Under the pieces are notes generated by a model. The model was not told where the DNA came from. It did no database searches and saw nothing but the letters and a program-made list of their open reading frames with translations. Below, piece after piece: positions 142 to 19,088 of a stretch of 32,625 nt of DNA (its first letter is position 1; each line of letters begins with the position of its first letter). The DNA is from Candidatus Liptonbacteria bacterium (GTDB lineage: Bacteria; Patescibacteriota; Minisyncoccia; UBA6257; 2-01-FULL-56-20): NCBI GenBank assembly GCA_016186635.1, contig JACPLI010000008.1, positions 1 through 32,625 of the forward strand. Direction: 5' to 3'. The translations under genes and the position numbers were made by a program.

Positions 142-165
142 CCATAACGGTTGTGCATAAAAAAT

Positions 166-1869: not shown

Positions 1870-1873
1870 AACA

Positions 1874-1905
1874 TCATGGGCTAATTCGTGCGAATTAGCC
1901 CATGA
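1874..1905 (+). other. Conserved hairpin in the A-B spacer
   Basis: A 15-bp perfect stem with a 2-nt loop lies just after the stop codon of paralogue A (arms 1874-1888 and 1891-1905). The same hairpin recurs after paralogue B, with outer pairs and loop changed. No T-run follows, so it is not a typical intrinsic terminator. It may stabilise the mRNA end or be a trace of the tandem duplication. Confidence 0.75.
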
Positions 1906-1931
1906 TAATAGCGAGTGAAATATAAGAAGCG

Positions 1932-1937
1932 TATCAT
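1932..1937 (+). promoter_or_regulatory. Putative -10 box of paralogue B
   Basis: TATCAT lies 8 nt before the ATG at 1946, inside a block that is conserved ahead of paralogue C (GTATCATTAAG, one variable base, then GTAATGA). There is no Shine-Dalgarno sequence. The spacing suggests a leaderless or nearly leaderless transcript. No convincing -35 box was found. Confidence 0.45.
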
Positions 1938-1945
1938 TAAGGGTA

Positions 1946-3802: not shown

Positions 3803-3808
3803 AGCCGT

Positions 3809-3838
3809 TATGGGCTAATTCGCACGAATTAGCCCATA
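3809..3838 (+). other. Conserved hairpin in the B-C spacer
   Basis: A 14-bp perfect stem (3809-3822 with 3825-3838) matches the hairpin after paralogue A. The two-base loop differs (CA instead of TG), and an outer base pair differs while remaining paired, which is a small amount of compensatory change. The sequence downstream as far as the next ATG is also conserved. Confidence 0.75.
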
Positions 3839-3864
3839 TAATAGCGGTTGGAATGTAAACAATG

Positions 3865-3870
3865 TATCAT
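3865..3870 (+). promoter_or_regulatory. Putative -10 box of paralogue C
   Basis: TATCAT lies 8 nt before the ATG at 3879, as for paralogue B. No ribosome binding site is present. It suggests that each copy of the array has its own leaderless start. Confidence 0.45.
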
Positions 3871-3878
3871 TAAGCGTA

Positions 3879-5687
3879 ATGAGTTCAGAAACAAGGGTTT
3901 GTAAAAGTTGTCAGAGGCAATTTGCCATTGAACCCGACGACTTTTCGTTCTATGAAAAGATCGGCGTGCCGCCGCCCACCTTCTGCCCCGACTGCAGGTT
4001 CCAGCGGCGGCTCCTGTGGCGAAACGAGCGTACGTTCTATCGCCGCGCGTGCGACCTTTGTAAGAGAAACATTATTGCGGTATATCCAACGGATTCTCCC
4101 TTCCCCGTCTATTGCCAGAAATGCTGGTGGAGCGACAAGTGGAGCCCCCTCTCCTACGGGCAGGACATGGACTTCTCGCGCCCGTTTTTCGAACAAGTAA
4201 AGGAACTCTGGAGCAAAGTCCCCGCGCTCTCCATCCAAAACGATGACGGCATCGCGAGCACGAACTCCGAGTGGTCCTACGACTGGGCGTTCAGCAAAAA
4301 CACGTATTTGAGCGTCTGCGGATGGTATACGGAAAACTGCTTTTATTCCTACTACGCCTGCTACGACAAGGATATTGCTGACTGCTATTTTATTTGGAAT
4401 TCGGAAATAGGGTATGAACTCGTGAACTGCGGCAAGTGTTACGGATCGAAGTACTGCACGCTCTGCTTCGACTGCACCGATTGCACGCTCTCCTACGACC
4501 TCCGGGGGTGCTCTCATTGCACGATGTGCGTAGGGCTCCGCAACAAACAATACTGCATCCTGAACCAGCAGTATTCCAAGGAAGAATACGCGAATAAACT
4601 TAAAGAATTGAATCTCGGCAATCGAGATGCGCTCGAGGCGCGCATGAAAGAATTCCGGGAATTCGCACTCCGCACGCCAAGAAAGTTCGCGAATCTCCTG
4701 AAATCAGTCCTCTGCACCAGCGACAACCTCATCACCTCAAAAAATTCCCATTCCTGCTTTTATGCGCAAGACCTTGAAAACTGCCGCCATATTGCGAATG
4801 TGGACGGCGCGAAGGATTCCTACGACTGCAATAACACTGGGCATGCAGAGCTCTGCTATGACTCCGTAACGCCCGACAACTCCCGCGGCAACAAGTTTTC
4901 CATTTTCTGCTGGAAATGCACCGAGGCGGAATACTCGAATAACTGCCACTCGTGCGTGAGCGTCATGGGTTCCTCGGGACTGAAGCACACCTCGTACGCG
5001 ATTTTGAACAAGCAATATGACAAAGAATCCTTCGGCAAGCTCAGGACGCGCATCATTGAACAAATGAAGCGCGCCGGGGAGTGGGGCGAATTTTTTCCGC
5101 ACACGCTCTCCCCTCATGCTTACAACGAAACCGCCGCGCTCGAGTGGTTCCCGCTCACGAAGGAAGAGGCGCTCGCGAAGGGCTACCGATGGAAAGATGA
5201 AGCAAAGAAAGAACATGTCCCCACAAAAACCGCCGCCGATTTGCCAAAAACGATTGCGGAAACGCCCGACTCCATATTGAATGAAGTAATTGAGTGTTCG
5301 CATGTGTACGTCGGGCGTCACAATAACCATGACAATGACCATGACCAGTCATCGTCATCGTTACCGTCATCGTGTAATCATAAATGCACCACGGCATTTA
5401 AGATTACTGTCGCTGAACTCCAACTCTACCGAAAACTCGACGTGCCGATTCCCACACTCTGCCCGAACTGCAGGCACTATGCTCGCCTGCAACAACGCAA
5501 CCCAGCAAAACTATGGAAACGCGCATGCCAGTGCGCGGGAACAAACTCCGAAAACGGAATCTACAAAAATACCGTGGGTCATAGTCATGGTAATAGTCAT
5601 TGTGAAGTTTCCTTCGAGACCTCATTCGCACCGGAGAGGCCGGAGGTTGTGTACTGCGAGCAGTGCTACAACGCGGAGATTGCGTAA
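3879..5687 (+). CDS. Cys-rich zinc-ribbon protein, paralogue C
   Basis: 602 aa, same family as A and B. The N-terminal module is complete (CKSC...CPDCR, CDLC...CQKC followed by WWSDKW). The Cys-rich core has the two FGC/MCVGLR-type repeats ending in YCILNQQYSKEEY and YAILNKQYDKESF. In the C-terminal ribbon the first CxxC is split: C-SHVYVG, then a His/Asn/Asp/Ser-rich stretch, then CNHKC. The extra stretch is coded by an ATGACN-type repeat at 5316-5385. The last knuckle carries YKNTVGHSHGNSHC, also partly repeat-derived. Function unknown; the extra His and Cys might still bind metal, which is inference. Confidence 0.85.
   Translation: MSSETRVCKSCQRQFAIEPDDFSFYEKIGVPPPTFCPDCRFQRRLLWRNERTFYRRACDLCKRNIIAVYPTDSPFPVYCQKCWWSDKWSPLSYGQDMDFSRPFFEQVKELWSKVPALSIQNDDGIASTNSEWSYDWAFSKNTYLSVCGWYTENCFYSYYACYDKDIADCYFIWNSEIGYELVNCGKCYGSKYCTLCFDCTDCTLSYDLRGCSHCTMCVGLRNKQYCILNQQYSKEEYANKLKELNLGNRDALEARMKEFREFALRTPRKFANLLKSVLCTSDNLITSKNSHSCFYAQDLENCRHIANVDGAKDSYDCNNTGHAELCYDSVTPDNSRGNKFSIFCWKCTEAEYSNNCHSCVSVMGSSGLKHTSYAILNKQYDKESFGKLRTRIIEQMKRAGEWGEFFPHTLSPHAYNETAALEWFPLTKEEALAKGYRWKDEAKKEHVPTKTAADLPKTIAETPDSILNEVIECSHVYVGRHNNHDNDHDQSSSSLPSSCNHKCTTAFKITVAELQLYRKLDVPIPTLCPNCRHYARLQQRNPAKLWKRACQCAGTNSENGIYKNTVGHSHGNSHCEVSFETSFAPERPEVVYCEQCYNAEIA
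5316..5385 (+). repeat. ATGACN/GTCATN hairpin repeat inside paralogue C
   Basis: One arm is made of ATAACC/ATGACN units and the other of GTCATC/GTTACC units, so the segment folds into a long imperfect hairpin. It is in frame and codes for the HNNHDNDHDQ and SSSSLPSS residues. The same repeat type occurs at about 5577-5606, 8868-8893, 27910-27955 and 30285-30358. Confidence 0.7.
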
Positions 5688-6609: not shown

Positions 6610-6637
6610 TTGACACCCCTCCCCTCCGGCATATGAT
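6610..6637 (+). promoter_or_regulatory. Promoter of the riboswitch leader
   Basis: A consensus -35 box TTGACA (6610-6615) is followed after 16 bp by TATGAT (6632-6637). The predicted transcription start is near 6644, about 350 nt before the coding region, which leaves room for the riboswitch. Confidence 0.75.
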
Positions 6638-6651
6638 GACCTTACAAGTTG

Positions 6652-6667
6652 CATAGTTTCGAAAGTA
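6652..6667 (+). promoter_or_regulatory. Candidate operator shared with the arsR-nrdJ promoter
   Basis: CATAGTTTCGAAA (6652-6664) occurs identically at 14083-14095, next to the start of the ArsR-type gene. Here it lies in an imperfect palindrome (ATAGTTTC/GAAAGTAT) and at the tip of a longer stem (AAGTTGCATA/TATGCAACTT). It sits just downstream of the predicted transcription start, where a bound repressor would block elongation. Binding by the ArsR-like protein is inference. Confidence 0.5.
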
Positions 6668-6689
6668 TGCAACTTATTCACAATAAGCA

Positions 6690-6930
6690 GTGAGTCTAGA
6701 GGGTCCCTCCTTCGCGTAAAGCTACGGAGGGCGCAGTGGGGAAGCGGGTGTAAATCCCGCACAGTGCCGCTACGGTAATTCCGATGCATATCGGATAAGT
6801 CCGAGTACCAACCTCTGGAATGTGTGGTGCGTGTCCCAGCATTTTGCGGGGCAAGCTTCTCGAGCAAGAGGCAACCCTGATATGTCGAATCAGAGTCGTT
6901 CCCTCTTGCTGTACGCAAGAGTTTTTTTAT
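6690..6930 (+). promoter_or_regulatory. Cobalamin riboswitch with expression platform
   Basis: The conserved core is recognisable: GGGAAGCGGGTGTAAATCCC, then GCACAGTGCCGC.ACGGTAA, then a short stem (TTCCGAT/ATCGGA), and a B12-box-like AGTCCGAGTACCAACCT near 6797-6813. The paired stem CCCTCC/GGAGGG lies at its 5' side. Downstream, 6863-6871 (AGCAAGAGG) can pair with 6902-6910 (CCTCTTGCT) as an antiterminator, in competition with the terminator at 6903-6921. This is the usual layout for transcriptional OFF control by adenosyl- or hydroxocobalamin. The gene controlled is the transcobalamin-like protein at 6998. Confidence 0.85.
6903..6928 (+). terminator. Intrinsic terminator of the riboswitch
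   Basis: CTCTTGC (6903-6909) pairs with GCAAGAG (6915-6921), followed directly by seven T. An identical GCAAGAG at 6864-6870 competes for the same left arm. Confidence 0.85.
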
Positions 6931-6965
6931 TTCACTTCTGCGCAAGCAGAAATCTAAAAATCTGG

Positions 6966-6985
6966 ATTCCCGTTTCCACGGGAAT
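6966..6985 (+). repeat. ATTCCCG...CGGGAAT palindromic repeat
   Basis: ATTCCCGTTTCCACGGGAAT within TGGATTCCCG...GGGAATGAC, the common interspersed element that translates as PRKRES-type peptides. It lies between the riboswitch terminator and the start codon at 6998. Another copy is read in frame in the ATPase gene (16989-17045). Confidence 0.75.
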
Positions 6986-6997
6986 GACAAATCCATT

Positions 6998-8866
6998 ATG
7001 TCCAAAAAATATATCGCAGCGTTTGTGGGTTTCGCGGTCGTAAGCAGTTTGTTTTTGAGCGTCGGCGTCTCGCACGGCGATACGAACACCGCACTCGCCT
7101 ATCTGAAGTCAAAGCCGCTCACGGCGTGGACGATTATGGCGCTCACTGCGGCGGGAGAATCCCCCGCGCTTGATTCGCTCAAATCAGTCTCAAGCGAAAA
7201 AGCGATTGACTACGAAGCGCCGATATTGGCGCTCACCGCCGCAGGCAAAGACCCGCGTACGTTCGGCGCGACAGATTACGTCGCGAAACTCAAGAGCTTC
7301 TCGGACGGGACCCAGCTCGGCGACGCGACAACTTTGAACGATGACATATTCGGCATTCTTGCGCTTCTCTCTGCGGGAGAGGAAAAAGAGAGTGCCTCGG
7401 TCTCGAGCACACTCCGCTTTGTGCTAAACCACCAGAATAGCGACGGGGGCTGGGGCTATGCCGTAGGCGGGGCAAGCGATACTAATACCACTGCCGCGGC
7501 AGTGATGGCGCTCCGCGCGGCGGGCACTCCTGCACCCGACACCTCGATTACCAAAGCGCTTGACTACCTCAAGTCCGCGCAAAATGGCGACGGCGGATTT
7601 CCCTATGACCCAAAGAGCGCCTGGGGCACGGACTCTGACGCTTCCTCGGACGCGTGGGTAATCATGGCAATAAAAAGCGCAGGGCAGGACCCTGCGGCGT
7701 GGCAAAAGGACAGCAAATCGCCCCTCGCAAACCTCGCCACATTCGCGGATGCCTCCGGTTTCTACCGCTACCAGCAAGGCGCCTCCGAGGATTCTTTCAG
7801 CCCCACCACCACCTCCTACGCGGTGATTGCGCTCGCCAACAAATTTTTCCCTCTCCGCGTGCTCGCTCCCACCGCCCCAGTACCCGTCCATTACTCCTAC
7901 CGCATCGAAGGCAAAACACAGGAGCTTTGCGCGGGAGAATCGGATGGCGTAACCGCGCTAGAATCCGTGCGTGCCGCCGCCGACGCCTGCGGCATCACCT
8001 ACCACATTCAGGAATCAAGCATCGGTTCTTACGTGGACGAAATCGCCACCGAAAAAGCCGCGGGCGCCTCCGGCTGGATGTATGCGGTGAAAAACGAGCT
8101 GCCGAGCGTGGGCGCGGGCGACTACAAACTCGCCGCGAACGACGACATCATCTGGTACTACGGCGCCTATGGCGACGAACTCCTCCGGCTTACGCTCGAC
8201 GCCACGAGCACCGCCGCAGGCACGCCCATCTCGGGCAAAGTGGAAACGTACCACGCTCACGCCTGGGCGCCCTTCGCGGGCGCCGCGGTTCTCGCGGGGA
8301 ATACCTCGACCACAACCGATGTAGCAGGAAAATTCTCACTCTCGCTCCCCGAAGGAATTCACTCACTTTCCGCGGAGGCGGCAAATCACGTGCGGAGCAA
8401 CACGGAAAAAGCGGCGGTGGGTGAACCGGACGCAACTGCGATTCCCTTAAGTGTGACGATTGCAACGAGCACCGGCGGCAACGGCCCCTCGGCAGGCTCG
8501 GGGTCTGCGAGCGGTGGGGGTGGCGGAACCGGCAGCGTAATCCAGGGCATATCCATCACGGTGGAAACGGGCACTACGGAAAGCGGGCTTGATTTCGGTT
8601 CGCTGGGCGGGGGCGGCGCGCAAAAGAAAACGATTACGCTCAAAAACAAAGGGCAGAAAAAACTTGCGATGCAGGCGGCGGTAAGCGGGGATGACGTGTT
8701 CCGAAGCTATCTCTTCCTCGACGGGAAAACCTGGCGCGTCTACCACGCGGCGGTGGAGCCCGGCGGAACCGTCGCGCCCGAAACCTCGCTCCGCATCCCC
8801 GCCTCGTACCCCGCGCCCGGCGCGAAAAAAGGAGCGCTGGTCTTTTGGGCGGTACCGGTGGAGTAA
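6998..8866 (+). CDS. Secreted transcobalamin-like protein (helical barrel + DUF4430)
   Basis: 622 aa. The signal peptide is about 1-27. Residues about 30-285 carry repeats of the prenyltransferase/squalene-cyclase type (AYLKSKPLTAWTIMAL, QNSDGGWGY, AQNGDGGFPYD), the alpha/alpha barrel shared with cobalamin carriers. Residues about 295-392 match DUF4430, the C-terminal domain of transcobalamin and intrinsic factor (GSYVDEIA...SGWMYAVKNE..SVGAGDYKL..NDDIIWYYG), with C311 and C331 able to pair. A carboxypeptidase-regulatory-like beta domain (about 398-475), a Gly/Ser linker and a last beta domain follow. There is no C-terminal membrane segment. A cobalamin riboswitch lies upstream and the next gene (8870) follows after 3 nt. 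The role as B12 capture at the surface is inferred from domain pair plus riboswitch. Confidence 0.85.
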   Translation: MSKKYIAAFVGFAVVSSLFLSVGVSHGDTNTALAYLKSKPLTAWTIMALTAAGESPALDSLKSVSSEKAIDYEAPILALTAAGKDPRTFGATDYVAKLKSFSDGTQLGDATTLNDDIFGILALLSAGEEKESASVSSTLRFVLNHQNSDGGWGYAVGGASDTNTTAAAVMALRAAGTPAPDTSITKALDYLKSAQNGDGGFPYDPKSAWGTDSDASSDAWVIMAIKSAGQDPAAWQKDSKSPLANLATFADASGFYRYQQGASEDSFSPTTTSYAVIALANKFFPLRVLAPTAPVPVHYSYRIEGKTQELCAGESDGVTALESVRAAADACGITYHIQESSIGSYVDEIATEKAAGASGWMYAVKNELPSVGAGDYKLAANDDIIWYYGAYGDELLRLTLDATSTAAGTPISGKVETYHAHAWAPFAGAAVLAGNTSTTTDVAGKFSLSLPEGIHSLSAEAANHVRSNTEKAAVGEPDATAIPLSVTIATSTGGNGPSAGSGSASGGGGGTGSVIQGISITVETGTTESGLDFGSLGGGGAQKKTITLKNKGQKKLAMQAAVSGDDVFRSYLFLDGKTWRVYHAAVEPGGTVAPETSLRIPASYPAPGAKKGALVFWAVPVE

Positions 8867-8869
8867 ACG

Positions 8870-9463
8870 ATGACTATGACTATAACGATGACGAAGGAGA
8901 TAAAATCAATTTGGGGAAGTCCGACTTCCTTAAGGAAGTCGGACTTCCTTACATTGATCGCGTTTGCAGGATTATTTATCCTCACGTCGCAAGCGCACGC
9001 CATCGGCATTACCGTGCTTCCTTCGGAGCTGAACGTAAAAACGCCACGCGGGACAGAAGCAGTCGCACGCCTCACCATCCAAAACCCTTCGCGCGAAGTG
9101 GCAGTGTTCGAAGTCTACCCCGATGACCTCGACTCGCTCATCACGCCCATCCCCTCGCGCTTCACGCTCGAGTCCGCCGAGTCCCGCACAATTGAAATAA
9201 AATTCGCCGCCAAACGGGAGGGAGTTTACACCACAAACCTCTCGGTGCTCGCCCGCCCCCTCACGGACCCCCTGCTCGGCATCGGGAGCGGCGTCAAAAT
9301 CCCGATTATATTCACCGTAACCGCGCCGCAAACATTCGCGCTCGCATCCCTCATTTCGCTCAACTCGCCGTGGGGACTCGCTACTATCGGAATTGCACTC
9401 GCCGCAATTTTGATCTACGCGTTACGCCGTGCATTCCAAAAGCGCGCCGCGGAACGGTATTAG
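8870..9463 (+). CDS. Membrane-anchored beta-sandwich protein, partner of the transcobalamin-like protein
   Basis: 197 aa. A signal sequence (about 26-44, LTLIAFAGLFILTSQAHA) is followed by an Ig-like domain (ITVLPSELNVKTPRGTEAVA...IQNPS...) resembling the DUF916 type, and one C-terminal membrane helix (about 163-185) with a basic tail. It starts 3 nt after the stop of the transcobalamin-like gene, so the two are probably co-transcribed under the same riboswitch. It could anchor or dock the secreted B12 binder, which is inference. The N-terminus is odd: MTMTITMTKEIK comes from an ATGACN repeat and GSPTSLRKSDF from a 30-bp palindrome. The true start might be further in; the AAGGAG at 8894 is placed for a start near 8907. 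Confidence 0.75.
   Translation: MTMTITMTKEIKSIWGSPTSLRKSDFLTLIAFAGLFILTSQAHAIGITVLPSELNVKTPRGTEAVARLTIQNPSREVAVFEVYPDDLDSLITPIPSRFTLESAESRTIEIKFAAKREGVYTTNLSVLARPLTDPLLGIGSGVKIPIIFTVTAPQTFALASLISLNSPWGLATIGIALAAILIYALRRAFQKRAAERY
8917..8946. repeat. 30-bp perfect palindrome in the signal-peptide coding region
   Basis: AAGTCCGACTTCC-TTAA-GGAAGTCGGACTT is a perfect inverted repeat. It is in frame and supplies the basic n-region before the hydrophobic part of the signal sequence of the 8870 gene. It directly follows an ATGACN run. Confidence 0.85.
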
Positions 9464-9465
9464 CT

Positions 9466-9494
9466 AATCTTCGGCAACCGGATTGCCTAAGATT
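9466..9494. terminator. Bidirectional terminator between convergent genes
   Basis: AATCTT-C-GGCAA (9466-9477) pairs with TTGCC-T-AAGATT (9483-9494) around a 5-nt loop. T-rich sequence follows on the plus side. It overlaps the 3' end of the DoxX-like gene and follows the plus-strand stop at 9463. Confidence 0.6.
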
Positions 9495-9888
9495 GATTTC
9501 TTCCCCGAGCAGAGAACCACTCGCGGAGCGAGCGTGGCCACCCCATAAGAAAAAGCAATGCAAGCGGCGCACCCCAGTTTGCCCACCGCTCGACGAAATC
9601 CCACCACGACTCTCCCATGATGGGCCGTACGAGTGCCGTCCAGAATCCCCAGAACGCCATCCAAAGGAGCGCCCACGGCAGGGGCTTTATGAGCACGAGG
9701 AGCGCAAAGAGTACATCCATGACTCCCACCGCGAAGAGCACCTGCGCCGCCGCTCCCGCATCCACCGAGAGGAACCGCTCAATCCATCCCACCCACTGCG
9801 CCTTCCCTTGAAGCGCAAACGCCCCGTGCCCCAGAAACTCCCCCGCAACCGCGATACGCAAGACCCATCCCACTAAAGAACTCTGCAT
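9487..9888 (-). CDS. DoxX-like small membrane protein
   Basis: 133 aa with four hydrophobic segments (LRIAVAGEFLGHGAFAL, AAQVLFAVGVMDVLFALLVL, LPWALLWMAFWGFWTALV, WANWGAPLALLFL). The layout and the GEFLGHG start resemble the DoxX/DoxD-type family. The family function is mixed (quinone or redox links) and gives no clear role here. It is the last gene of the arsR-nrdJ-cobO-ECF run, with one base between it and the previous stop. A role in cobalamin uptake is possible only by position. Confidence 0.6.
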   Translation of the reverse strand: MQSSLVGWVLRIAVAGEFLGHGAFALQGKAQWVGWIERFLSVDAGAAAQVLFAVGVMDVLFALLVLIKPLPWALLWMAFWGFWTALVRPIMGESWWDFVERWANWGAPLALLFLMGWPRSLREWFSARGRNQS

Positions 9889-9889
9889 T

Positions 9890-10417
9890 TTATTGCACTC
9901 CTATTACTGCAACGTCGCTCGACGTGCGACGTTCTTCCGACGTAATCCACGCGTAGACCAAGGGGCTCACCGTCACCGCAAACACGGTGTTCCCCAGAAG
10001 GTGGAGCATGGTAAAAGGAATCTGCCCCGCAACTGCCGCAACAAACGATTGCCCAAAGAAGAGCGGCCCCACGGTAAGCCCTGTCAAAGCGTCGTACACA
10101 AGCGTACCGATGATTGCATACGCAAAGTAAGACGCGCGCGAACTTTCACGGTTGCGCAAAAACAAATACGCGCCCGCGCCCACGAGCCCGTAGGAAGACG
10201 CGGTGATAAGCGACCACACGCCCGCCGTGCCGGTCACGATGTCAAAGAGAAAAATACTCGCCGCGCCAAAGAGAAACCCGCTCATGGCGCCTCCTCGCTT
10301 CGCAAACGGCATCGCAGTCGCAAGAATCGGCTCCACATTCGGCGCCCGCCAAGGCAAAAGCCGCACCGCAAGGCACCCGAGGAGTGCCGCACCATATTTC
10401 CAATCCAATCTCCGCAT
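9890..10417 (-). CDS. ECF transporter S component, candidate cobalamin or corrinoid binder
   Basis: 175 aa with about five or six membrane segments. The pattern LGCLAVRLLPWRAPNVEPILATAMPFAKRGG...GFLFGAAS fits the S (substrate-binding) subunits of energy-coupling-factor transporters of the DUF6580 type. Family members differ in substrate, so sequence alone does not tell. The gene is directly downstream of the adenosyltransferase gene in the same operon as B12-dependent ribonucleotide reductase, which points to cobalamin or a corrinoid. No EcfT or EcfA gene is in the window; a shared module elsewhere in the genome would have to supply them. Confidence 0.65.
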   Translation of the reverse strand: MRRLDWKYGAALLGCLAVRLLPWRAPNVEPILATAMPFAKRGGAMSGFLFGAASIFLFDIVTGTAGVWSLITASSYGLVGAGAYLFLRNRESSRASYFAYAIIGTLVYDALTGLTVGPLFFGQSFVAAVAGQIPFTMLHLLGNTVFAVTVSPLVYAWITSEERRTSSDVAVIGVQ

Positions 10418-10446
10418 GAGTTTGATAATTGATAATTGAAAATTTT

Positions 10447-10968
10447 CTAGTACTCCACCCCTTTCACCCCCATCACTCCCCCGGCATACGGGTGCTTCAC
10501 CTCCCGCATCTCGGTCACCAAGTCCGCTTCCTCGATGAACTCCGGCGCGGCATTCCGCCCTGTGAGAATTACATGCTCCACTTTTTGGTGCGCACGATGA
10601 AGCACCTTCTCCACGCTCTTCTCCGTGATAAGTCCGAGTGAGACCGCATTATTCACTTCGTCCAGAATTACCACCTCCCACTTCCCCGACTGGATTTCCT
10701 TGTCTGCAAACGCAAGCGCTTCTTGTGCCGCCTTCATATGCTCCTCGCGCGGCAACTTGTCTCCGAAAATCCCCACAAATCCCTTTCCCTTTTTTACAAT
10801 TTTAAAGTTAGGCCCCAAAAGTTTTGCGGAATCCTCCTCGCCGGAGTGCCATGGCCCTTTGATGAACTGCACCATAAGTACTCGCTTCCCGTCTCCCACA
10901 AGCCGCAAGGCCTGCCCCAACGCCGCAGTGGTTTTTCCTTTGCCGTTACCGGTGAAAACGAGAAGCAT
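10447..10968 (-). CDS. cobO: Corrinoid adenosyltransferase (CobO/CobA/BtuR type)
   Basis: 173 aa, slightly shorter than E. coli BtuR. The N-terminal P-loop TGNGKGKTTAALGQALR (about 6-22), VLMVQFIKG, and the VVILDEVNNAVSLGLI motif (about 94-109) identify the ATP:co(I)rrinoid adenosyltransferase family, which attaches the 5'-deoxyadenosyl group from ATP to cobalt. HVILTGRNA.PE and the end with KHPY..GV fit the family. It lies between nrdJ (27 nt upstream) and the ECF S gene. The product, adenosylcobalamin, is the cofactor of the neighbouring ribonucleotide reductase. Confidence 0.93.
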   Translation of the reverse strand: MLLVFTGNGKGKTTAALGQALRLVGDGKRVLMVQFIKGPWHSGEEDSAKLLGPNFKIVKKGKGFVGIFGDKLPREEHMKAAQEALAFADKEIQSGKWEVVILDEVNNAVSLGLITEKSVEKVLHRAHQKVEHVILTGRNAAPEFIEEADLVTEMREVKHPYAGGVMGVKGVEY

Positions 10969-10995
10969 GAGGTTTGGCTAATGGCTAATGGCTAT

Positions 10996-13734
10996 TTACG
11001 AACACGCTCCGCTTGTGCTCCCGCACTGGATGCACGTCTTACACGACCCGGTCTGTATGAGCATCCCGCCGCAGGCGCGGCACACGCTGTCCGCATACAC
11101 GCGCGCCGCACTCGCGGGCGCTTCAGCGGCAACAGTTTTTACCGCAACAGTCTGCGCGATAGGCATCGCGGGAACTTTCTCGTCCTGGTCAAGCCCTTTG
11201 TGCGGCACTTTGATACCCATTCCCTCAAGCTCGTCCGCAGAGAGAAAGCGGATGGCGAGGTAGCGGAAAATGTAGTCCGTGATGGAAGTCGCGACTTGCA
11301 CCTCCGGGTTCTTCGTAAACCCGGCGGGTTCATAGCGCCCGTAGGAAAACTTCTGCGCAAGCGTCGCGACCGGCACACCGTACCGGAGCGCGGTCGAGAC
11401 CACGATGGCGAAGGCGTCGAGGAGCCCCGCGAGGGTCGAACCCTGCTTCGACATTCGGATGAAAATCTCGGCGAGACCCCCGTCCTCAAACATGCTGTAG
11501 GTGAGATACCCCTCGTGCCCCGCAATCGAGAACTTGTGCGTCTCGGAGGGCCGCGTCGCAGGCAAGTGCCGCCGCGCCGGCTTCTGCTCTTTCTTCTGTG
11601 TGCCTTTCCCCTGCTCCGCGCCGGTAAAGAGCGGCTGGGCGGCTTTCGAGCCGTCGCGGTAGACGGCAAACGCCTTCAGTCCAAGCTTCCACCCCATCAT
11701 GAGCGCTTGCTCCACTTCTTCCACCGTCGTCTCGTGCGGCATGTTAAAGGTTTTCGATATGGCGCCCGAAAGGAAAGGCTGCACCGCCGCCACCATCTTC
11801 ACATGCCCCTTCCACGAAATGGAGCGAGTGCCCTTCGCGGGTTTTACCGCGCAGTCGAAAACGGGCAAATGCTCCTCCCGGAGCCCCGGCGCTCCCTCTG
11901 CGGTTCCCCGCGCCTCGATATACGCGGCGATTGCCGCGCGCTCCGCCTCCCCATACCCCACCGCGCGCAGGGCGTCGGAGACCACGTTGTTCACAAATTT
12001 CATCATACCGCCGCCCACAAGCCGCTTCATTTTAACAAGCGCGAACTCCGGCTCCACGCCGGTCGTCACGCAATCCATCATGAGCGCAATCGTGCCCGTG
12101 GGTGCGAGGACGGATACCTGCGCGTTCCGCACGCCCCACCGGCGGGCGTCCGCAACCGCCCCGTCCCACGCCTCGCGCGCGCTCCGCACGATATCGCCAT
12201 CGAACGCAAGTGTGCCGTCCACTCCTTGAAGCGCATCACGGTGCATATGAAGCACCTTGAGGAGCGGCTCGCGGTTTTCCTGGAATCGCGCAAAGGGATG
12301 CATGTCGCGCGCGAGGTGCGCCGAGAAGCGGTACGCCTCGCCCGTCATAAGCGCGGTGATTGCGGCGGCGGTGTGCCTCGCCTCGTCCGAGTCGTAGGGA
12401 ATCCCCAGCGACATAAGCACAGCGCCCAGATTCGCGTAGCCCAGCCCCAGCTGGCGGAAGTCGTGCGCATTCTTCGCGATGCGGGGGGTGGGGTACGCCG
12501 AGCCATCCACCAGAATTTCCTGCGCGAGGAGCATGATGTCCACCGTGCGGCGGAACCCCTCCACGTCGAATTTTCCCTCCGGCGTGAGGTAATGGAGCAA
12601 ATTGATGGACGAGAGGTTGCACGCGGAGTTGTCCACGTGCATGTACTCGCTGCAGGGGTTCGAGCCGTTGATGCGCCCGGAGGCAGGGCACGTATGCCAC
12701 CGATTGATGGTCGTATCAAACTGGAGCCCGGGGTCACCGCAGTTCCAGGCGTTCTCCGCAATTGCATGGAACACGTCGCGCGCTTTATATGCGTCCGCTA
12801 CCGCGCCGTCCGTAATCCGCCGCGTCCGCCACGCCTCGTCCTGCTCCACCGCCTGCATAAACAGGTCTGTTACGCGCACGCTGTTGTTCGCGTTCTGGTA
12901 CTGGATGGAATTCCACGCGGGGTCGTTCAAATCGAACATATTGTAGCCCGCGTCAATCAGCGCCCGCACTTTCTTCTCCTCATCCGACTTCACGCGGATA
13001 AACCGCATGATGTCGGGGTGGTCCACATTCAAAATCACCATTTTCGCCGCGCGGCGCGTGGAGCCGCCCGAGGCAATCATCCCCGCAACCGCGTCTGCAC
13101 CGCGCATGAAGGACACCGGTCCCGACGAGTGCCCGCCGCGCGAGAGGGTCTCCTTCGTGGAGCGCAGAGGTGAAAGATTCACGCCCGCGCCCGAGCCGCG
13201 CTTGAAAATGAGCCCTTCGGTCGTAATCCACTCCAGGATGGATTCCATCGAGTCCTCCACGGAGAGGATGAAGCACGCCGAGCACTGCGGCTTCGCATCA
13301 ATTCCCACATTGAACCACACCGGGGAATTGAACGCCGCGCGCTGATGCACAAGCACATACGCAAGCTCATCGGCATACGTGTTCGCGCTCGCGTCATCGG
13401 CGAAGTAGTGAAACCGCAATCCCCATTCGCGCACGGTCTTCACCACCCGCCCTATCATCTGCCGGACGGAGGATTCCCGCTCTGCGGAGCCCACGCGCCC
13501 GCGGAAATATTTTGAGCCGGCGATCTCCGCCGCGTTCTCCGACCAGAATTCCGGAAACTCCAACTCGCGCTCTTCTGCAGCTCCGTTCGTGCCGCGCACC
13601 GTCACTTTCCTGGTCGTCCACGCCACTTCGTCGAAGGGATGTGTCCCTTCACGTGAAAAGAAACGCTCCACAAGCGGCGCGTGTGCGTTCTGATGCTGCT
13701 TCAGCGGCGCGGCGGGAACAGTCGCACGCTCCAT
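10996..13734 (-). CDS. nrdJ: Adenosylcobalamin-dependent (class II) ribonucleoside-diphosphate reductase
   Basis: 912 aa, full length. It makes deoxyribonucleotides from ribonucleotides using a radical formed from adenosylcobalamin. Visible features are the redox Cys region PQCSACF (C151/C154), the RGSGAGVNLSPLR and GG.SSGPVSFMRG blocks, the active-site motif NPCSEYM (N359, C361, E363) followed by the second redox Cys in DNSACNLSSINL (C372), the APTGTIALMMDC region, and a C-terminal Cys-rich tail (CRACGG...CKTCIQCGSTSGAC) typical of class II enzymes. No nrdB or nrdD is in the window. It begins 12 nt after the ArsR-type gene and is followed by cobO, so cofactor supply and use are in one operon. 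Confidence 0.95.
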   Translation of the reverse strand: MERATVPAAPLKQHQNAHAPLVERFFSREGTHPFDEVAWTTRKVTVRGTNGAAEERELEFPEFWSENAAEIAGSKYFRGRVGSAERESSVRQMIGRVVKTVREWGLRFHYFADDASANTYADELAYVLVHQRAAFNSPVWFNVGIDAKPQCSACFILSVEDSMESILEWITTEGLIFKRGSGAGVNLSPLRSTKETLSRGGHSSGPVSFMRGADAVAGMIASGGSTRRAAKMVILNVDHPDIMRFIRVKSDEEKKVRALIDAGYNMFDLNDPAWNSIQYQNANNSVRVTDLFMQAVEQDEAWRTRRITDGAVADAYKARDVFHAIAENAWNCGDPGLQFDTTINRWHTCPASGRINGSNPCSEYMHVDNSACNLSSINLLHYLTPEGKFDVEGFRRTVDIMLLAQEILVDGSAYPTPRIAKNAHDFRQLGLGYANLGAVLMSLGIPYDSDEARHTAAAITALMTGEAYRFSAHLARDMHPFARFQENREPLLKVLHMHRDALQGVDGTLAFDGDIVRSAREAWDGAVADARRWGVRNAQVSVLAPTGTIALMMDCVTTGVEPEFALVKMKRLVGGGMMKFVNNVVSDALRAVGYGEAERAAIAAYIEARGTAEGAPGLREEHLPVFDCAVKPAKGTRSISWKGHVKMVAAVQPFLSGAISKTFNMPHETTVEEVEQALMMGWKLGLKAFAVYRDGSKAAQPLFTGAEQGKGTQKKEQKPARRHLPATRPSETHKFSIAGHEGYLTYSMFEDGGLAEIFIRMSKQGSTLAGLLDAFAIVVSTALRYGVPVATLAQKFSYGRYEPAGFTKNPEVQVATSITDYIFRYLAIRFLSADELEGMGIKVPHKGLDQDEKVPAMPIAQTVAVKTVAAEAPASAARVYADSVCRACGGMLIQTGSCKTCIQCGSTSGACS

Positions 13735-13746
13735 GTGCGGTTTGCG

Positions 13747-14085
13747 TTAGAGCGGGCTCGCCACAGGGGCGGGCCCACTCCACAAGTCTTTAAGAATTCG
13801 GCACGGTTCCACAATCCGAGGATTTGCAATCGTGTAATAGACATTCAACCCGCTCTTCCGCACCCGCACCACCCGCGCGTAGCGCAAGAGCGCCAAGTGC
13901 TGGGACATGTTCGCTTTGGAAACGCCGAGAATCCTCGTAAGCTCGTCCACCGAAACCTCGTGGTGCTTTAAAATATTCAGAATCTCAAGCCGCTTCGGAT
14001 TCGCAAGAATTTTGTAGAGATGTGCGTTCCGCTGGTAGACCGCCTTGGGGAATGGAGACTTCGCTTTTGTTGTTGCCGTCTTCAT
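13747..14085 (-). CDS. ArsR-family winged-helix regulator
   Basis: 112 aa. The winged helix runs from LYKILANPKRLEILNIL to the recognition part VDELTRILGVSKANMSQHLALLRYARVVRVRKSGLNVYYTI. The metal-binding ELCVCDL motif of ArsR/SmtB is missing (EVSVDEL instead), and the only Cys is in EPCRIL near the C-terminus, so this is not an ordinary metal sensor. It is the first gene of the operon with nrdJ, cobO, the ECF S gene and the DoxX-like gene. A candidate operator lies between its own promoter and start codon, and again at the riboswitch leader promoter. The ligand is unknown; a corrinoid, a nucleotide-pool signal or a redox signal are all possible. Confidence 0.85.
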   Translation of the reverse strand: MKTATTKAKSPFPKAVYQRNAHLYKILANPKRLEILNILKHHEVSVDELTRILGVSKANMSQHLALLRYARVVRVRKSGLNVYYTIANPRIVEPCRILKDLWSGPAPVASPL

Positions 14086-14143
14086 AGTTTCGAAATTTCT
14101 TAACTACTTCTCCACTATACTCCCCGCGTGCCGCTCATGGCAA
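14083..14143 (-). promoter_or_regulatory. Promoter and candidate operator of the arsR-nrdJ operon
   Basis: On the minus strand, -35 TTGCCA (14138-14143) and -10 TATAGT (14114-14119) are 18 bp apart. The 13-bp CATAGTTTCGAAA found also at 6652-6664 lies at 14083-14095, between the predicted transcription start (near 14107) and including the start codon. Its centre TTTCGAAA is palindromic. Confidence 0.6.
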
Positions 14144-14213: not shown

Positions 14214-14984
14214 CTACTTAAACCTCGCAAAATATCGGTCAATCTCCGGCCGCAAATCAATCCCCGCCTGTTCAAAGCAATCAAGTAAAACATTATAAGT
14301 TCCTTCTCCCGCGAGAAAATTCCAAAATTCCTCTGCTACTTTTACCTCTTCTTTAAGATCAAGCATCCCTTTCATTGTCCACCGAGTATACGGCTTCGGT
14401 TCGTAAGGGTTGTATGGAATTGAAATAAGTGTTCTTACTTTAACTTTGGGATGTTGATAAAAGTACACTGCGAGCCATTCGAGCATATTTCGCTTGTAGG
14501 ATATAAAATCGCCTTTATTTGGTTTAACCGTTTTCAGGTCAAACATAAACACCTCGTCCTTCCTCGAAACAAGAAATAGATCAACCTTCACTGATTTAAG
14601 CTTGTTTTGCTTCCCATGTTGGGCAACTTTCCGTACTCTTTCCGTTTCAGAAACTTTATCCACCTCCCCGCCCATAGAAAGATGGTTCATAATCTTTTGA
14701 ATTTCATCCTGAGCCCCTTGCGTAAGGATGTTGCCAAGTTTGTATTGGGTGAAAACTTCTTTGAATTTTGTCTTTGCAACTTCCTTTGCAACTGGCTCAT
14801 AAATCGAGGTTCCGAATGTTGTGTTTAACGAATGAAGAAAAGAGAACAGAGCCATTCTGTCTTTGCCCAGTAATCGGTAATGAAATGGCATATGGTCCGT
14901 TTCGGGCTTGTAATCTTGAAACTTATTACGAAGACAGTCCTTTATAGTACCCACAATGTGATCTTTGTATTCTTTGGTAAGCAT
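14214..14984 (-). CDS. TdeIII-like type II restriction endonuclease
   Basis: 256 aa. The sequence has a PD-(D/E)xK-type core, KVDLFLVSRKDEVFMFDLKTVKPNKGD (about 131-157), with D and DLK as likely catalytic residues, followed by a conserved ISIPYNPYEPKPYTRW stretch; this pattern fits the TdeIII family. The start codon overlaps the stop of the methyltransferase gene (TAATG), so the two are translated together. Base composition is visibly AT-richer than the flanking genes, as is usual for a transferred restriction system. The recognition site cannot be read from the sequence. Confidence 0.7.
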   Translation of the reverse strand: MLTKEYKDHIVGTIKDCLRNKFQDYKPETDHMPFHYRLLGKDRMALFSFLHSLNTTFGTSIYEPVAKEVAKTKFKEVFTQYKLGNILTQGAQDEIQKIMNHLSMGGEVDKVSETERVRKVAQHGKQNKLKSVKVDLFLVSRKDEVFMFDLKTVKPNKGDFISYKRNMLEWLAVYFYQHPKVKVRTLISIPYNPYEPKPYTRWTMKGMLDLKEEVKVAEEFWNFLAGEGTYNVLLDCFEQAGIDLRPEIDRYFARFK

Positions 14985-16570
14985 TATGTTCTCTTGAGAT
15001 GAAAAATAATTTCCGAGTAGGGCGACTTGTCCCGCTCGGTGCGGTTTAACACTGGACGCTTGAACCGATTAACAATCTTCATTCCCGATTGCGCAGCGAT
15101 AGTAGGATAAAGGTTATGTTTGTCGTTTGCAACGAGGAAAACATCAAAGTTGTCAGCAAGATATTCTCTGCAGTTCAGTAAAACCTTTGAAATCCCCTCA
15201 ATATAAGACGCTCGCGCTTCCACACCCTGTCCTTTATAAAGAGGGCCTATCTCAAACTCATCTCTACGCTCAAAACCGAAAAGGTCATAGGCGTAGGCAT
15301 GCTGTTCGTGATAGTCAATCTGTCCCACATAGGGCGGCGAAGTAAAAATACCCCTAATCTTTTGTTGCCTTAACACATCATGGAATTTTTTGTTCCGCTT
15401 CTCAACTTCCTTGAATATATCGACCGTTCGAGAATCAGCCGGAATAACTGCGTAACACGAGTCTGTCTTTAATTTCTCATAAGCTTTGAGCCGCTCTATA
15501 GTGTCCGTCGCATAGCGGTCAAACCACTCTTTTATCGAGAAGAGCGGCTTACAAATCTTTTTGTGCTTCCAGCAGTAATAGGTAACTACTTGAGGTTCTT
15601 TAAGCGTGGCTAAATCAGAATGCGTTGTCGCGCGGCACGACCTAATGGTACGACTTAAAATTACCGCTGAAATCTTTTTATTTCTCACATTTTTAATTCT
15701 CTTTATCTGTTCAAACGCAAAATCAATTTCCTTGCGAACATTTCTGATATACCACTTATCCAAAAAGTTCTGGGAGGAGAAGTGATTAAGCTCAATGCCA
15801 TATTTCTTTACAAGTCCATTATAAACACTCAGAAATTCCTTCTCTTTTTCGACCGCGTAGTTGCCCTCATCAATCTGCTTTCTCTGTATCTTATATTTGA
15901 ACTCTGGGCTTGGAAAATAGTGAATATTGAAATCGGCCATCTGAGCCAACAGTTCACTTTCAAAAATAGCGATATTACTGTCTACTTCATAGTTTGCAAT
16001 CGCTTGCGCCACTTTCTTCACCTCATTCTCAAGTAAAGTAAAATCGTACGACAACAACTTTGCTTCCGTAATTGTGCAATTAAAATGAGAAATATCAATT
16101 CCGATAGAATGCATACCCACCTCATGTGCCTGCACAAGCGTCGTGCCAGAACCAGAAAACGGATCGAGAATTATATCTCCGGCCTTAAAGTAAATTTCTT
16201 TCTTAAAATCGTCTGTGTGACCGTCAATAAAATATTCGACAAGCTGCGGGATAAACTTCCCTTTATAAGGATGCAAGCGGTGAACATGTTTTGTGGTGTC
16301 CTTCTCTCGCAGATGGTCAAAAGACAAAGCCCAGTTTAGATCATCTCCAAGCCGCTTTTTCCAACTCGTCTCTCGCCAGCTGCGGTAGGACTCATAGTAT
16401 TTTTTCAAATCGCTCGGATCTATAAGTACCGAGGTAGTACCATCGTATTTTTTTACTTTCCCATACTGCACCAAGTATGAGATATTCGATTCGCTAATAT
16501 CTCGCTTCAAAAAATCGCTCGCCCAACGGCTTGCCTCTTTAATCGTGAAGAAATTTTGGGTCTGCTGCAT
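14984..16570 (-). CDS. Type II DNA methyltransferase with N-terminal HTH
   Basis: 528 aa from the ATG at 16570 (an upstream TTG at 16576 is less likely). The N-terminal 60 residues (FTIKEASRWASDFLKRDISESNISYLV...) look like a helix-turn-helix of the excisionase kind. Motif I is DPFSGSGTTLVQAHE (about 136-150) and motif IV is TSPPYVGQIDY (about 410), with the target-recognition region between them. TSPPY suggests N4-cytosine or N6-adenine methylation. It protects the host from the endonuclease coded downstream. An inverted repeat at its promoter may be the target of the HTH for self-control. Confidence 0.85.
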   Translation of the reverse strand: MQQTQNFFTIKEASRWASDFLKRDISESNISYLVQYGKVKKYDGTTSVLIDPSDLKKYYESYRSWRETSWKKRLGDDLNWALSFDHLREKDTTKHVHRLHPYKGKFIPQLVEYFIDGHTDDFKKEIYFKAGDIILDPFSGSGTTLVQAHEVGMHSIGIDISHFNCTITEAKLLSYDFTLLENEVKKVAQAIANYEVDSNIAIFESELLAQMADFNIHYFPSPEFKYKIQRKQIDEGNYAVEKEKEFLSVYNGLVKKYGIELNHFSSQNFLDKWYIRNVRKEIDFAFEQIKRIKNVRNKKISAVILSRTIRSCRATTHSDLATLKEPQVVTYYCWKHKKICKPLFSIKEWFDRYATDTIERLKAYEKLKTDSCYAVIPADSRTVDIFKEVEKRNKKFHDVLRQQKIRGIFTSPPYVGQIDYHEQHAYAYDLFGFERRDEFEIGPLYKGQGVEARASYIEGISKVLLNCREYLADNFDVFLVANDKHNLYPTIAAQSGMKIVNRFKRPVLNRTERDKSPYSEIIFHLKRT

Positions 16571-16574
16571 ACGC

Positions 16575-16609
16575 AAAGAAGAGAGTTAATATCTCTTCTT
16601 TATAGTATA
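16575..16609 (-). promoter_or_regulatory. Promoter and inverted repeat of the restriction-modification operon
   Basis: On the minus strand, -10 TATACT (16604-16609) is followed by a perfect 10-bp inverted repeat (AAAGAAGAGA/TCTCTTCTTT, 16575-16584 and 16592-16601) that spans the predicted transcription start. This is a good position for autoregulation. The region also separates this operon from the ATPase gene that ends at 16620. Confidence 0.55.
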
Positions 16610-16619
16610 CCCCAAACCT

Positions 16620-19088
16620 CTAAAGCTCGCGCCGCCGTAAAAGCACCGCATTCACCGCCACGATGAACGTACTTACCGACATGAGCGCCGCCGCGAACGC
16701 GGGCTCCAAAATAATCCCCTTGAAGGCGAGCGCGCCCGCCGCAAGCGGCAGTGCCGCGATGTTATACCCCGCCGCCCACCAGAGATTTTGAATCATCTTT
16801 GAGTATGTCATCCGCGACAACTTAATTATCTTCACAATATCCCGAGGGTCGTTCCGCACGAGGATAATGCCCGCGGACTCGATTGCCACGTTCGTGCCCG
16901 CCCCGATGGCGATGCCCACGTCGGATTGTGTCAAAGCCGGCGCGTCGTTGATGCCGTCGCCAACAAAAGCGATGCGGTGCCTGATGTTATCCCCGTGCAA
17001 ACGGGGATCCAGTATTTCCTTGGATTCCCGCTTCCGCGGGAATGACAAAACAGTTTCAAATTTCGGATTTTGCAGTTTTTTCACTATTGCCGCTTTTTCG
17101 CCGGGCAACACCCTCGCGTAGTACTCGTCCACACCCAACTCGCTAGACACCCATTTCGCCACATCTTCGGAATCCCCGGTAATCATCGCGGTCTTCACTC
17201 CTATTTCTTTAAGTACCGTGAGCGCCTCGCGCGACTCCTCGCGGATGACGTCCGCAAGCGCAACAGCGCCCGCAAGCGCGCGCTCCTTCACTGCAAAAAT
17301 CACGGTGTGCCCTTTCCTGCCCGCCTCCGCAATCGGGCCGGAAAGCTCGGAAGGAATGTGTACGCCGATACTCTCGAGAAGCGCCGGGCCGCCCACGAGC
17401 ACTTCTTTACCGTCCACGAGCGCCCGCACACCCCTCCCCTTGAGCGCTTCGAATTTCTCCGCGGTTGTGAGCGGCAGGTCCCGCCGCTTGGCTTCGGCAA
17501 CGACCGCTTTTGCAATCGGGTGCTCGGAAAAGGTATCGAGAGATGCCGCGAGCGCAAGCACCTCGTCTTTGCCTGAACCGCCCGCGGTCCAGATTTCCAT
17601 AACCCCGAACTCGCCTTTCGTGAGCGTGCCCGTCTTGTCAAAAAGCACCGTGTCCACGTTCCGCGCCGCTTCGAGCGCAAGCCGCTGTTTCACGAGGAAT
17701 CCGTGCTGTGCCGCTTTGGTCGTGGAAATCGACGCCACAAGCGGCACCGCAAGACCAAGCGCGTGCGGGCAGGCAATCACCAAGACCGCCACGAGCCGCG
17801 CCACGGCAAACGCGAGGTCCGCGCCCGCCATAAGCCACGCCGCGAGGGTAATGGCGCCGCCCACAACTGCAATAAAGGTAAGGTAGAGCGCCGCGCGGTC
17901 CGAGAGAACTTGGAGGCGCGACTTCGACGCCTGCGCCTCGGCAACAAGCCGCATCACGCCCGCGAGGAACGTGTGCTCCCCGATGTGCGAGACTTTCACC
18001 GTGAGCGCGCCATCCCCGTTCGTGGCGCCCGCAATCACCGCATCATCCTCCTTCTTCGGGACCGGCTTCGATTCTCCCGTCATGAGCGCCTCATTCACGT
18101 CGGACTCTCCGCGCACGACCACGCTGTCCGCAGGAACCTTCGCCCCGGGCCGCACGAGCACCCAATCTCCTTCCTTCAGCTCTTCAAGTGACACCTCTTT
18201 TGTTTCGAAGTTTGAAGTTTGGTCATTGGATATTGTTTGGAATTTAGAATTTGGAATTTGGCTATTGCGAATTATCAAAATCGCCTTGTCCGGCAACAAC
18301 TTTGACAGCTCGCGGAGCGCCCCCTGCGCGCCCTTGACCGCCCGCATCTCGAGCCAGTGGCCAAGAAGCATAATCGTGATAAGCGTCGTGAGCTCCCAGA
18401 AAAGCGCCTCCGCTCCCGCGAAGACAGCATAGACGCTCCAGAGATACGCGGCGGAGACCGCAACGCCGATAAGCGTCATCATGCCCGGGAGCCGGCCCAC
18501 AATTTCCCGCCACGCGCCCGCAAGGAATACCCAGCCGCCGTAGAAAAAGACGATCGAGCCAAGCACAAACGGCACATACGCCGCACCGGGAAACTCGGGC
18601 GGCGACCATCCAAACACAACTTTAATCACATCCGAGTAGAGCACCACCGGAATGGTGAGTACCAAACTCACCCAGAATTTTTTGAGGAACATCGCGGTGC
18701 TGTGCCCGGCATGCTTGCCCGCCGAAGCTTCAGCGAAGGAGGGCTTGCCTGCCCCGTGCCCCTTATGCTCCACCGCCGCTTTCTTCTTTTTTGCAGGCAC
18801 AAGCGCCATCCCGCACTCCGGGCACATTCCGGGCCGCGCCTGCTGAATCTCCGGATGCATGGGGCAGGTATATATTTCTCCTCCCTCATCCTTATGTTCA
18901 TGCTCATCCTTACGTTCCACGGCGTGGACCGTGATTTCTATATTGCAGCTCTTGTGCTCCTTACACCACGCCTCGCACTTCTCCGCCCATTCCTTTTCCT
19001 TGTACTCTAAGCCGCACTCCGGGCACTTGTAGAGCTTCTCCGTGTCATGCTTAAGCTCCTTTTCAAGCTTGTCGTGGCAACAATCCAT
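16620..19088 (-). CDS. copB: CopB-type heavy-metal (copper) P-type ATPase
   Basis: 822 aa. It pumps copper (or a related soft metal) out across the membrane. An N-terminal Cys-rich region (CPECG..., CEAWC) precedes a heavy-metal-binding YTCPMHPEI...GMCPECGMAL domain (about 73-95). Then come membrane helices, the A domain (MTGES, 336-340), the CPH metal motif (440-442, typical of the CopB/P1B-3 branch), DKTGTLT (484-490), SEHPIAKA (521-528), TGDS and GDGINDAP (710-717). Three stretches come from interspersed repeats: about 116-127 (SFAEASAGK), 275-297 (NSQIPNSKFQ...) and 680-705 (LSFPRKRESKE...). The last sits just before GDGINDAP. The frame is kept through all three, and all catalytic motifs are intact. 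It is the last gene of the metal block. Confidence 0.93.
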   Translation of the reverse strand: MDCCHDKLEKELKHDTEKLYKCPECGLEYKEKEWAEKCEAWCKEHKSCNIEITVHAVERKDEHEHKDEGGEIYTCPMHPEIQQARPGMCPECGMALVPAKKKKAAVEHKGHGAGKPSFAEASAGKHAGHSTAMFLKKFWVSLVLTIPVVLYSDVIKVVFGWSPPEFPGAAYVPFVLGSIVFFYGGWVFLAGAWREIVGRLPGMMTLIGVAVSAAYLWSVYAVFAGAEALFWELTTLITIMLLGHWLEMRAVKGAQGALRELSKLLPDKAILIIRNSQIPNSKFQTISNDQTSNFETKEVSLEELKEGDWVLVRPGAKVPADSVVVRGESDVNEALMTGESKPVPKKEDDAVIAGATNGDGALTVKVSHIGEHTFLAGVMRLVAEAQASKSRLQVLSDRAALYLTFIAVVGGAITLAAWLMAGADLAFAVARLVAVLVIACPHALGLAVPLVASISTTKAAQHGFLVKQRLALEAARNVDTVLFDKTGTLTKGEFGVMEIWTAGGSGKDEVLALAASLDTFSEHPIAKAVVAEAKRRDLPLTTAEKFEALKGRGVRALVDGKEVLVGGPALLESIGVHIPSELSGPIAEAGRKGHTVIFAVKERALAGAVALADVIREESREALTVLKEIGVKTAMITGDSEDVAKWVSSELGVDEYYARVLPGEKAAIVKKLQNPKFETVLSFPRKRESKEILDPRLHGDNIRHRIAFVGDGINDAPALTQSDVGIAIGAGTNVAIESAGIILVRNDPRDIVKIIKLSRMTYSKMIQNLWWAAGYNIAALPLAAGALAFKGIILEPAFAAALMSVSTFIVAVNAVLLRRREL
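16989..17045 (-). repeat. PRKRES-type palindromic repeat read in frame in copB
   Basis: TGGATTCCCGCTTCCGCGGGAATGAC on the plus strand is the same element as at 6966-6985. It encodes LSFPRKRESKEILDPRLHGD, a peptide well known from this repeat class, inserted in the P domain of the ATPase before the hinge motif. Confidence 0.85.
18198..18266 (-). repeat. Low-complexity repeat read in frame in copB
   Basis: It encodes about 23 residues (NSQIPNSKFQ...TSNFET) between the membrane part and the actuator domain. The DNA and peptide match the repeat at 3160-3228 in Cys-rich paralogue B. Confidence 0.75.
18708..18743 (-). repeat. SFAEASAGK-type palindromic repeat in copB
   Basis: The segment CTTGCCCGCCGAAGCTTCAG...GAAGGAGGGC encodes SFAEASAGKHAG in the linker between the metal-binding domain and the first membrane helix. 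A related element at 25224-25258 encodes PASAKAPAGKAW in another gene. Confidence 0.75.

Follow-up and report, generated by a model that had tools for sequence, protein, structure and literature searches.

A putative locus for vitamin B12 capture, activation and use in a Candidatus Liptonbacteria genome

In Lactobacillus delbrueckii, a published nrdJ-cbrS-cbrT-pduO cluster goes together with ECF-CbrT, the vitamin B12 (cobalamin) transporter of the energy-coupling factor (ECF) type in this species (PMC5997447), and in L. rhamnosus a DUF4430 gene adjoins rtpR (PMC9963975). BtuM, encoded beside btuR, has earlier been proposed as a B12 S component that acts alone, with trapping by the adenosyltransferase (PMC6072759). 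How the reduced, partner-dependent bacteria of the candidate phyla radiation (CPR) acquire B12 appears to be little described, and our literature searches found no paper that links CPR or Patescibacteria to class II ribonucleotide reductase (RNR), to ECF or to the cobalamin riboswitch. Here we analyze a stretch of 32,625 nucleotides from a Candidatus Liptonbacteria genome (contig JACPLI010000008.1; hereafter the window), in which positions 6610 to 14143 carry a gene for a carrier-like protein behind a cobalamin riboswitch and a convergent operon putatively for B12 import, activation and use. We consider it likely that this locus is a B12 salvage-and-use module, combining capture, motor-free import, adenosylation and use by the reductase NrdJ. 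The analyses below directly support the set of genes present, the riboswitch with its switchable terminator, the carrier-like fold, the homology to CbrT, the linkage across the phylum and the lack of the ECF protein EcfT above cut-off. In its plan, the locus varies the nrdJ-cbrS-cbrT-pduO cluster already known.

Genes and control elements of the locus

An earlier note on this DNA, made from the sequence alone, had described a cobalamin riboswitch, a protein with a barrel (here, toroid) and a DUF4430 domain, and a convergent operon with an S component, CobO and NrdJ. All of these elements were found, as follows:

6610-6637, plus strand: sigma-70-like promoter (TTGACA-16-TATGAT, 11/12; consensus match only)
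6683-6830, plus strand: cobalamin riboswitch aptamer RF00174 (covariance model, 50.1 bits, E 8e-10)
6864-6909, plus strand: predicted antiterminator, in which 6864-6871 (GCAAGAGG) pairs with 6902-6909 (CCTCTTGC)
6903-6928, plus strand: predicted intrinsic terminator with a 7-bp stem and a T7 tail, which competes against the antiterminator
6998-8866, plus strand: putatively secreted toroid and DUF4430 protein of 622 residues (signal peptide about 1-27, toroid about 28-285, DUF4430 317-389, C-terminal beta/immunoglobulin (Ig)-like domains about 400-622)
7946-8164, plus strand: DUF4430 domain, transcobalamin beta-domain-like (Pfam profile, and DUF4430-profile match to transcobalamin)
8870-9463, plus strand: P2, putative membrane-anchored Ig-like partner with a C-terminal membrane stretch
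9487-9888, minus strand: the operon's last gene, encoding a small hydrophobic membrane protein
9890-10417, minus strand: CbrT-like B12 S component of 175 residues, predicted to be solitary
10447-10968, minus strand: corrinoid adenosyltransferase CobO/BtuR (profile match; P-loop GNGKGKTT)
10996-13734, minus strand: class II (B12-dependent) ribonucleotide reductase NrdJ of 912 residues (profile match)
13747-14085, minus strand: the operon's first gene, encoding an ArsR-family regulator (profile match)
14114-14143, minus strand: promoter-like site of the operon (10/12; consensus match only)

The carrier-like nature of the protein encoded at 6998 is seen in its predicted fold. A model of residues 28-400, built from 14 sequences, reached a predicted local distance difference test (pLDDT) score of 91.4 and a predicted template-modelling score of 0.74. 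When searched against the PDB, its top 15 matches were all transcobalamin (rat, bovine and human), human intrinsic factor or haptocorrin, with E values of 3e-12 to 1e-9 and about 400 columns that cover both domains; prenyltransferases and cyclases ranked below these carriers, at 1e-7 or weaker and over fewer columns. The DUF4430 domain also matched the carriers by profile (TCN2, E 5e-10; TCN1, 3e-7; intrinsic factor, 2e-4), and the transcobalamin-like plan proposed in the earlier note is thereby borne out. Pfam labels the toroid SQHop_cyclase_C (residues 100-231); the toroid part of the sequence profile matched cyclases and prenyltransferases only and had no significant sequence similarity to the animal carriers. 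With its hydrophobic, export-signal-like N-terminus and no further clear membrane stretch, the protein may be located at the cell surface and would bind B12 there.

P2 may anchor this carrier to the membrane. Its homologue lies directly behind the toroid gene in the relatives' loci L076, L078, L080, L082 and L116-L120, where the whole toroid-DUF4430-P2 cassette recurs, and in Dehalococcoidia (L125) a P2-related protein is encoded between the toroid and DUF4430-EcfT genes. The start codon of P2 is uncertain because of a perfect palindrome (GGAAGTCCGACTTCC..GGAAGTCGGACTTCC, 8915-8948) at the start of its reading frame.

The riboswitch match spans the full model (1-189), lies above the gathering score of 31.5 bits and is the sole copy in a search of the genome. 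The 5' arm of the terminator is the alternative pairing partner of 6864-6871, so that the two folds are mutually exclusive, with nearly equal predicted energies (-32.5 kcal/mol for the antiterminator and -32.1 kcal/mol for the terminator fold). Such a promoter-aptamer-terminator build is typical of transcription-terminating riboswitches, which are normally OFF with ligand, and B12 would switch off the capture genes in this manner. A palindromic repeat (ATTCCCGTTTNCACGGGAAT and variants) occurs at 6966-6985, 16989-17008 and 17024-17043, the first of these copies lying downstream of the riboswitch terminator and ahead of the capture gene.

In the convergent operon on the minus strand, arsR is followed by nrdJ, cobO, the S component and the small membrane protein, with 12, 27, 29 and 1 bp between successive genes. 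NrdJ passes two curated cut-offs (NF005122, 1273.7 bits against 859; TIGR02504, 590 against 400), and CobO scores 189.3 bits to PF02572 and 167.2 bits to the NCBIfam model cobA, slightly below the cut-off of 167.75. By sequence, the identities of both enzymes are secure. The relatives' loci L077, L083, L088, L108 and L115 have an NrdR-like regulator preceding nrdJ, at the place of the ArsR-family gene of the window.

The S component itself gave no significant match in a Pfam search, and was identified through its relatives, its fold and its homology to CbrT. A profile of its six-member family had a single PDB match, 6fnp_A (E 2.1e-5), from the structure of ECF-CbrT (6FNP). Its length, and the way in which it aligns with S components, mark 6fnp_A as presumably the CbrT chain. 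In a fold search of the PDB, ranks 1-17 were ECF S components (probability 0.93-1.00). The operon described in the earlier note is thus confirmed by profiles, fold and CbrT homology. A BtuM-type cobalt-ligating cysteine was not found, the six-member alignment having no invariant cysteine.

Distribution in the phylum and the ECF motor

Among 287 genomes of the phylum, we found DUF4430 in 81, RF00174 in 58 (34 matches exceeding the gathering score) and CobO in 96, of which the 93 over the cut-off entered the statistics. About a quarter of the phylum thus appears to carry a DUF4430 B12-capture protein, and most of these genomes have other parts of the gene set as well. DUF4430 co-occurs with the riboswitch (p = 7e-9) and with CobO (p = 5e-10; Fisher tests, which overstate independence, as genomes of one phylum are kin). 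The parts are also linked physically: 24 of the 58 riboswitches have a DUF4430 within 1.5 kb downstream on the same strand, where about 0.06 were expected, and CobO lies within 3.5 kb of DUF4430 in 35/49 genomes having both. Co-occurrence of the kind that the earlier note had proposed to survey is present, together with physical linkage, and riboswitch control of the toroid or DUF4430 gene recurs in relatives, such as genomes G271, G126 and G132.

A closer test was made on 80 chosen genomes, 48 with and 32 without DUF4430. The family DUF6580 was present in 46/48 of the former and in 1/32 of the latter (p = 1e-18), and the two exceptions (the source genome and G132) carry the S-component family of the window, so that every DUF4430 genome tested (48/48) has a CbrT-like protein. 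DUF6580 aligns with the window's S family at 96% probability and likewise matches only 6fnp_A in the PDB (E 0.0017). By sequence, it is a remote CbrT relative, and it supplies the S-like protein in most of the other CPR loci. Our literature search on DUF6580 found no paper; the function predicted here, if true, would be its first.

The typical CPR cluster reads nrdJ-cobO-small DUF4430-DUF6580. In L127 (Paceibacterota) and in G132, the S family of the window stands with an RTPR-type class II RNR and with PduO replacing CobO, and the L127 cluster additionally includes an AdoCbl-II riboswitch, DUF4430 and a toroid. This replacement of parts by unrelated equivalents is the best argument for the proposed function.

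EcfT (PF02361) was above the cut-off in 0/80 phylum genomes, the source genome included, in a search that detected it in 10/14 control genomes and would miss a very divergent EcfT. None of the CPR loci that we read pairs an S component with EcfT, unlike Bacillus L128, which has the order cobalamin riboswitch, DUF4430-toroid, DUF4430, EcfT, EcfA, S component. As no EcfT was found above the cut-off, the S component probably imports B12 on its own, in the way proposed for BtuM. The ECF S component named in the earlier note holds as a protein homologous to the B12 S component CbrT, and a standard ECF transporter was rejected for want of an EcfT above the cut-off.

Proposed route of B12 and alternative explanations

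In the proposed route, low B12 would let transcription pass the terminator, the secreted toroid and DUF4430 protein and membrane-anchored P2 would be made, and corrinoid would be bound at the cell surface. The carrier would then hand the corrinoid over to the solitary S component, which, being CbrT-like and without an ECF motor, may move it across the membrane by facilitated diffusion. Inside, CobO would adenosylate the corrinoid, both trapping it and yielding adenosylcobalamin, with which NrdJ would make deoxyribonucleotides. All of these steps, including binding, hand-over and motor-free transport, are read from sequence and predicted structure. For Patescibacteria in general, it seems to us an even question whether B12 import does without an ECF motor altogether. 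In that case, capture proteins with DUF4430, among them complete carriers of the transcobalamin type, would pass corrinoid to CbrT-like proteins that act alone (DUF6580 or the S family of the window), and CobO or PduO would draw the flux inward by adenosylation.

Several observations weigh against the proposed route. Taken alone, the toroid sequence is nearer to squalene cyclases than to transcobalamin, and the domain orientation in the ligand-free model fails to superpose on the closed carriers (root-mean-square deviation about 22 A). The latter fits a ligand-free form, as in animal carriers B12 binds the beta-domain first and is needed for domain association (PMC11107200). Confidence in the model of the S component is low (pLDDT 68; lowest E value of the fold search 0.014), and the riboswitch reads the capture genes only, the import and activation operon lying outside its control. 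The kinship of the genomes and the limited reach of the EcfT profile, mentioned above, point the same way.

A further such observation is that the same genome encodes a class I reductase (G000:C22:28631-33138, locus L215), with an alpha subunit bearing an ATP cone and an R2 gene at G000:C22:32278-33138. B12 is therefore probably not essential in the source genome, and its essentiality was rejected. Neither R2 nor NRDD was found in 13 other DUF4430 genomes tested; therefore most of these may depend on the class II enzyme. Use of the coenzyme for DNA precursors, as claimed in the earlier note, remains plausible in the source genome, but obligatory use is improbable since the class I enzyme is present.

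The gene arrangement bears on whether the toroid and DUF4430 protein takes part in import at all. It might serve only as a B12 sensor, a store or a means of denying B12 to competitors, with the S component importing unaided; in the source genome the capture gene and the S-component gene indeed lie on different strands and are controlled separately, and in G132 and G271 the toroid gene and the RNR cluster are at separate places. We regard this as quite improbable given that in most CPR loci DUF4430 genes adjoin that of the S component, that in Bacillus L128 they share an operon with an ECF transporter, and that CbrT-like proteins accompany DUF4430 in all 48 genomes tested. That the protein is instead a cyclase or prenyltransferase-like enzyme, with incidental riboswitch control, is hardly credible: Pfam and sequence searches label the toroid squalene-hopene cyclase, yet the B12-carrier match spans both domains and outranks the cyclases, the toroid is fused to DUF4430 behind an export-signal-like N-terminus, and riboswitch control recurs in the three relatives named above. 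This identity was rejected by the fold ranking and the domain fusion.

The cargo and the energy source of import allow other explanations as well. CobO-type enzymes accept several corrinoids, and the true cargo could be cobinamide or incomplete corrinoids from neighbours. CbrT takes cobinamide besides cobalamin (PMC5997447). Against this reading, which we think unlikely, the window showed no genes for completing corrinoids, although no search for them extended to other parts of the genome. It is also rather unlikely that an ATP-binding cassette (ABC) motor, whether unrecognised or shared, drives the S component. Well-studied S components, CbrT among them, do use the ECF module (PMC5997447), and the profile may overlook an EcfT that has diverged strongly, but it recovers EcfT in most controls and, above the cut-off, in none of the 80 phylum genomes, and the pairing of S component and EcfT seen in Bacillus L128 is absent from the CPR loci read. 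We therefore favor motor-free import of B12 through the module.

If this is true, the module is a testable route from B12 capture to DNA synthesis, and bacterial DUF4430/toroid proteins are counterparts of the animal B12 carriers. A bacterial relative with the same two-domain plan would be useful for asking about the origin of these carriers.

Genomic surroundings and comparison with known systems

The source genome is 0.92 Mb in size (97.9% complete), and the toroid protein finds its closest named relatives mostly among metagenome-assembled genomes of Patescibacteria. Both are consistent, if indirectly, with the CPR-like genome supposed in the earlier note. The source bacterium is probably symbiotic. 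The limits of the locus, 6610 and 14143, coincide with two outward promoter-like sites. A phage or plasmid origin was rejected, the toroid protein having no phage match and the S component no plasmid match. Beyond the locus, a TdeIII-type restriction endonuclease and a DNA methylase (14214-16576) have a G+C content of 40-41%, against 54% for the window, and this contrast suggests that the restriction-modification system was probably acquired. They are followed by a heavy-metal P-type ATPase with an HMBD domain (16620-19088). A family of Cys-rich proteins has three tandem members at 151-5687 and one further relative at 27589-28767. Among the CPR loci read, other members (L209:4015-5739 and L212:8438-8977) occur only in G163 and G014, near the S-component gene.

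The earlier note held that this is not a textbook arrangement, which stands for CPR bacteria; outside them, the L. delbrueckii cluster (PMC5997447) and, in L. rhamnosus, a DUF4430 gene next to rtpR (PMC9963975) were already known. With the former, the window shares the clustering of a class II RNR, a CbrT-type S component and a corrinoid adenosyltransferase, and with the latter a DUF4430 protein adjoining the RNR gene. It differs from the Lactobacillus systems in that no EcfT was found in its genome, that CobO stands in place of PduO, and that its DUF4430 is fused to a toroid, under its own riboswitch and on the opposite strand. Bacillus timonensis L128 likewise has a cobalamin riboswitch, a toroid and DUF4430 surface protein and an S component, but there with a full ECF module, an LPxTATN-type wall sorting signal and DUF4430 domains before the toroid.

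The import half of the locus resembles BtuM and BtuR in its S-component fold, in the lack of EcfT in the genome and in the nearby adenosyltransferase gene for metabolic trapping. Unlike BtuM, its S component belongs to the CbrT sequence family, has no invariant cysteine among six members and has an external capture protein as its partner. Like transcobalamin, intrinsic factor and haptocorrin, this capture protein is a putatively secreted one with an alpha toroid followed by a DUF4430/beta-domain, and these carriers are its best PDB fold match over both domains; the window protein differs from them by its extra C-terminal beta/Ig-like domains and by a toroid without significant sequence similarity to theirs.

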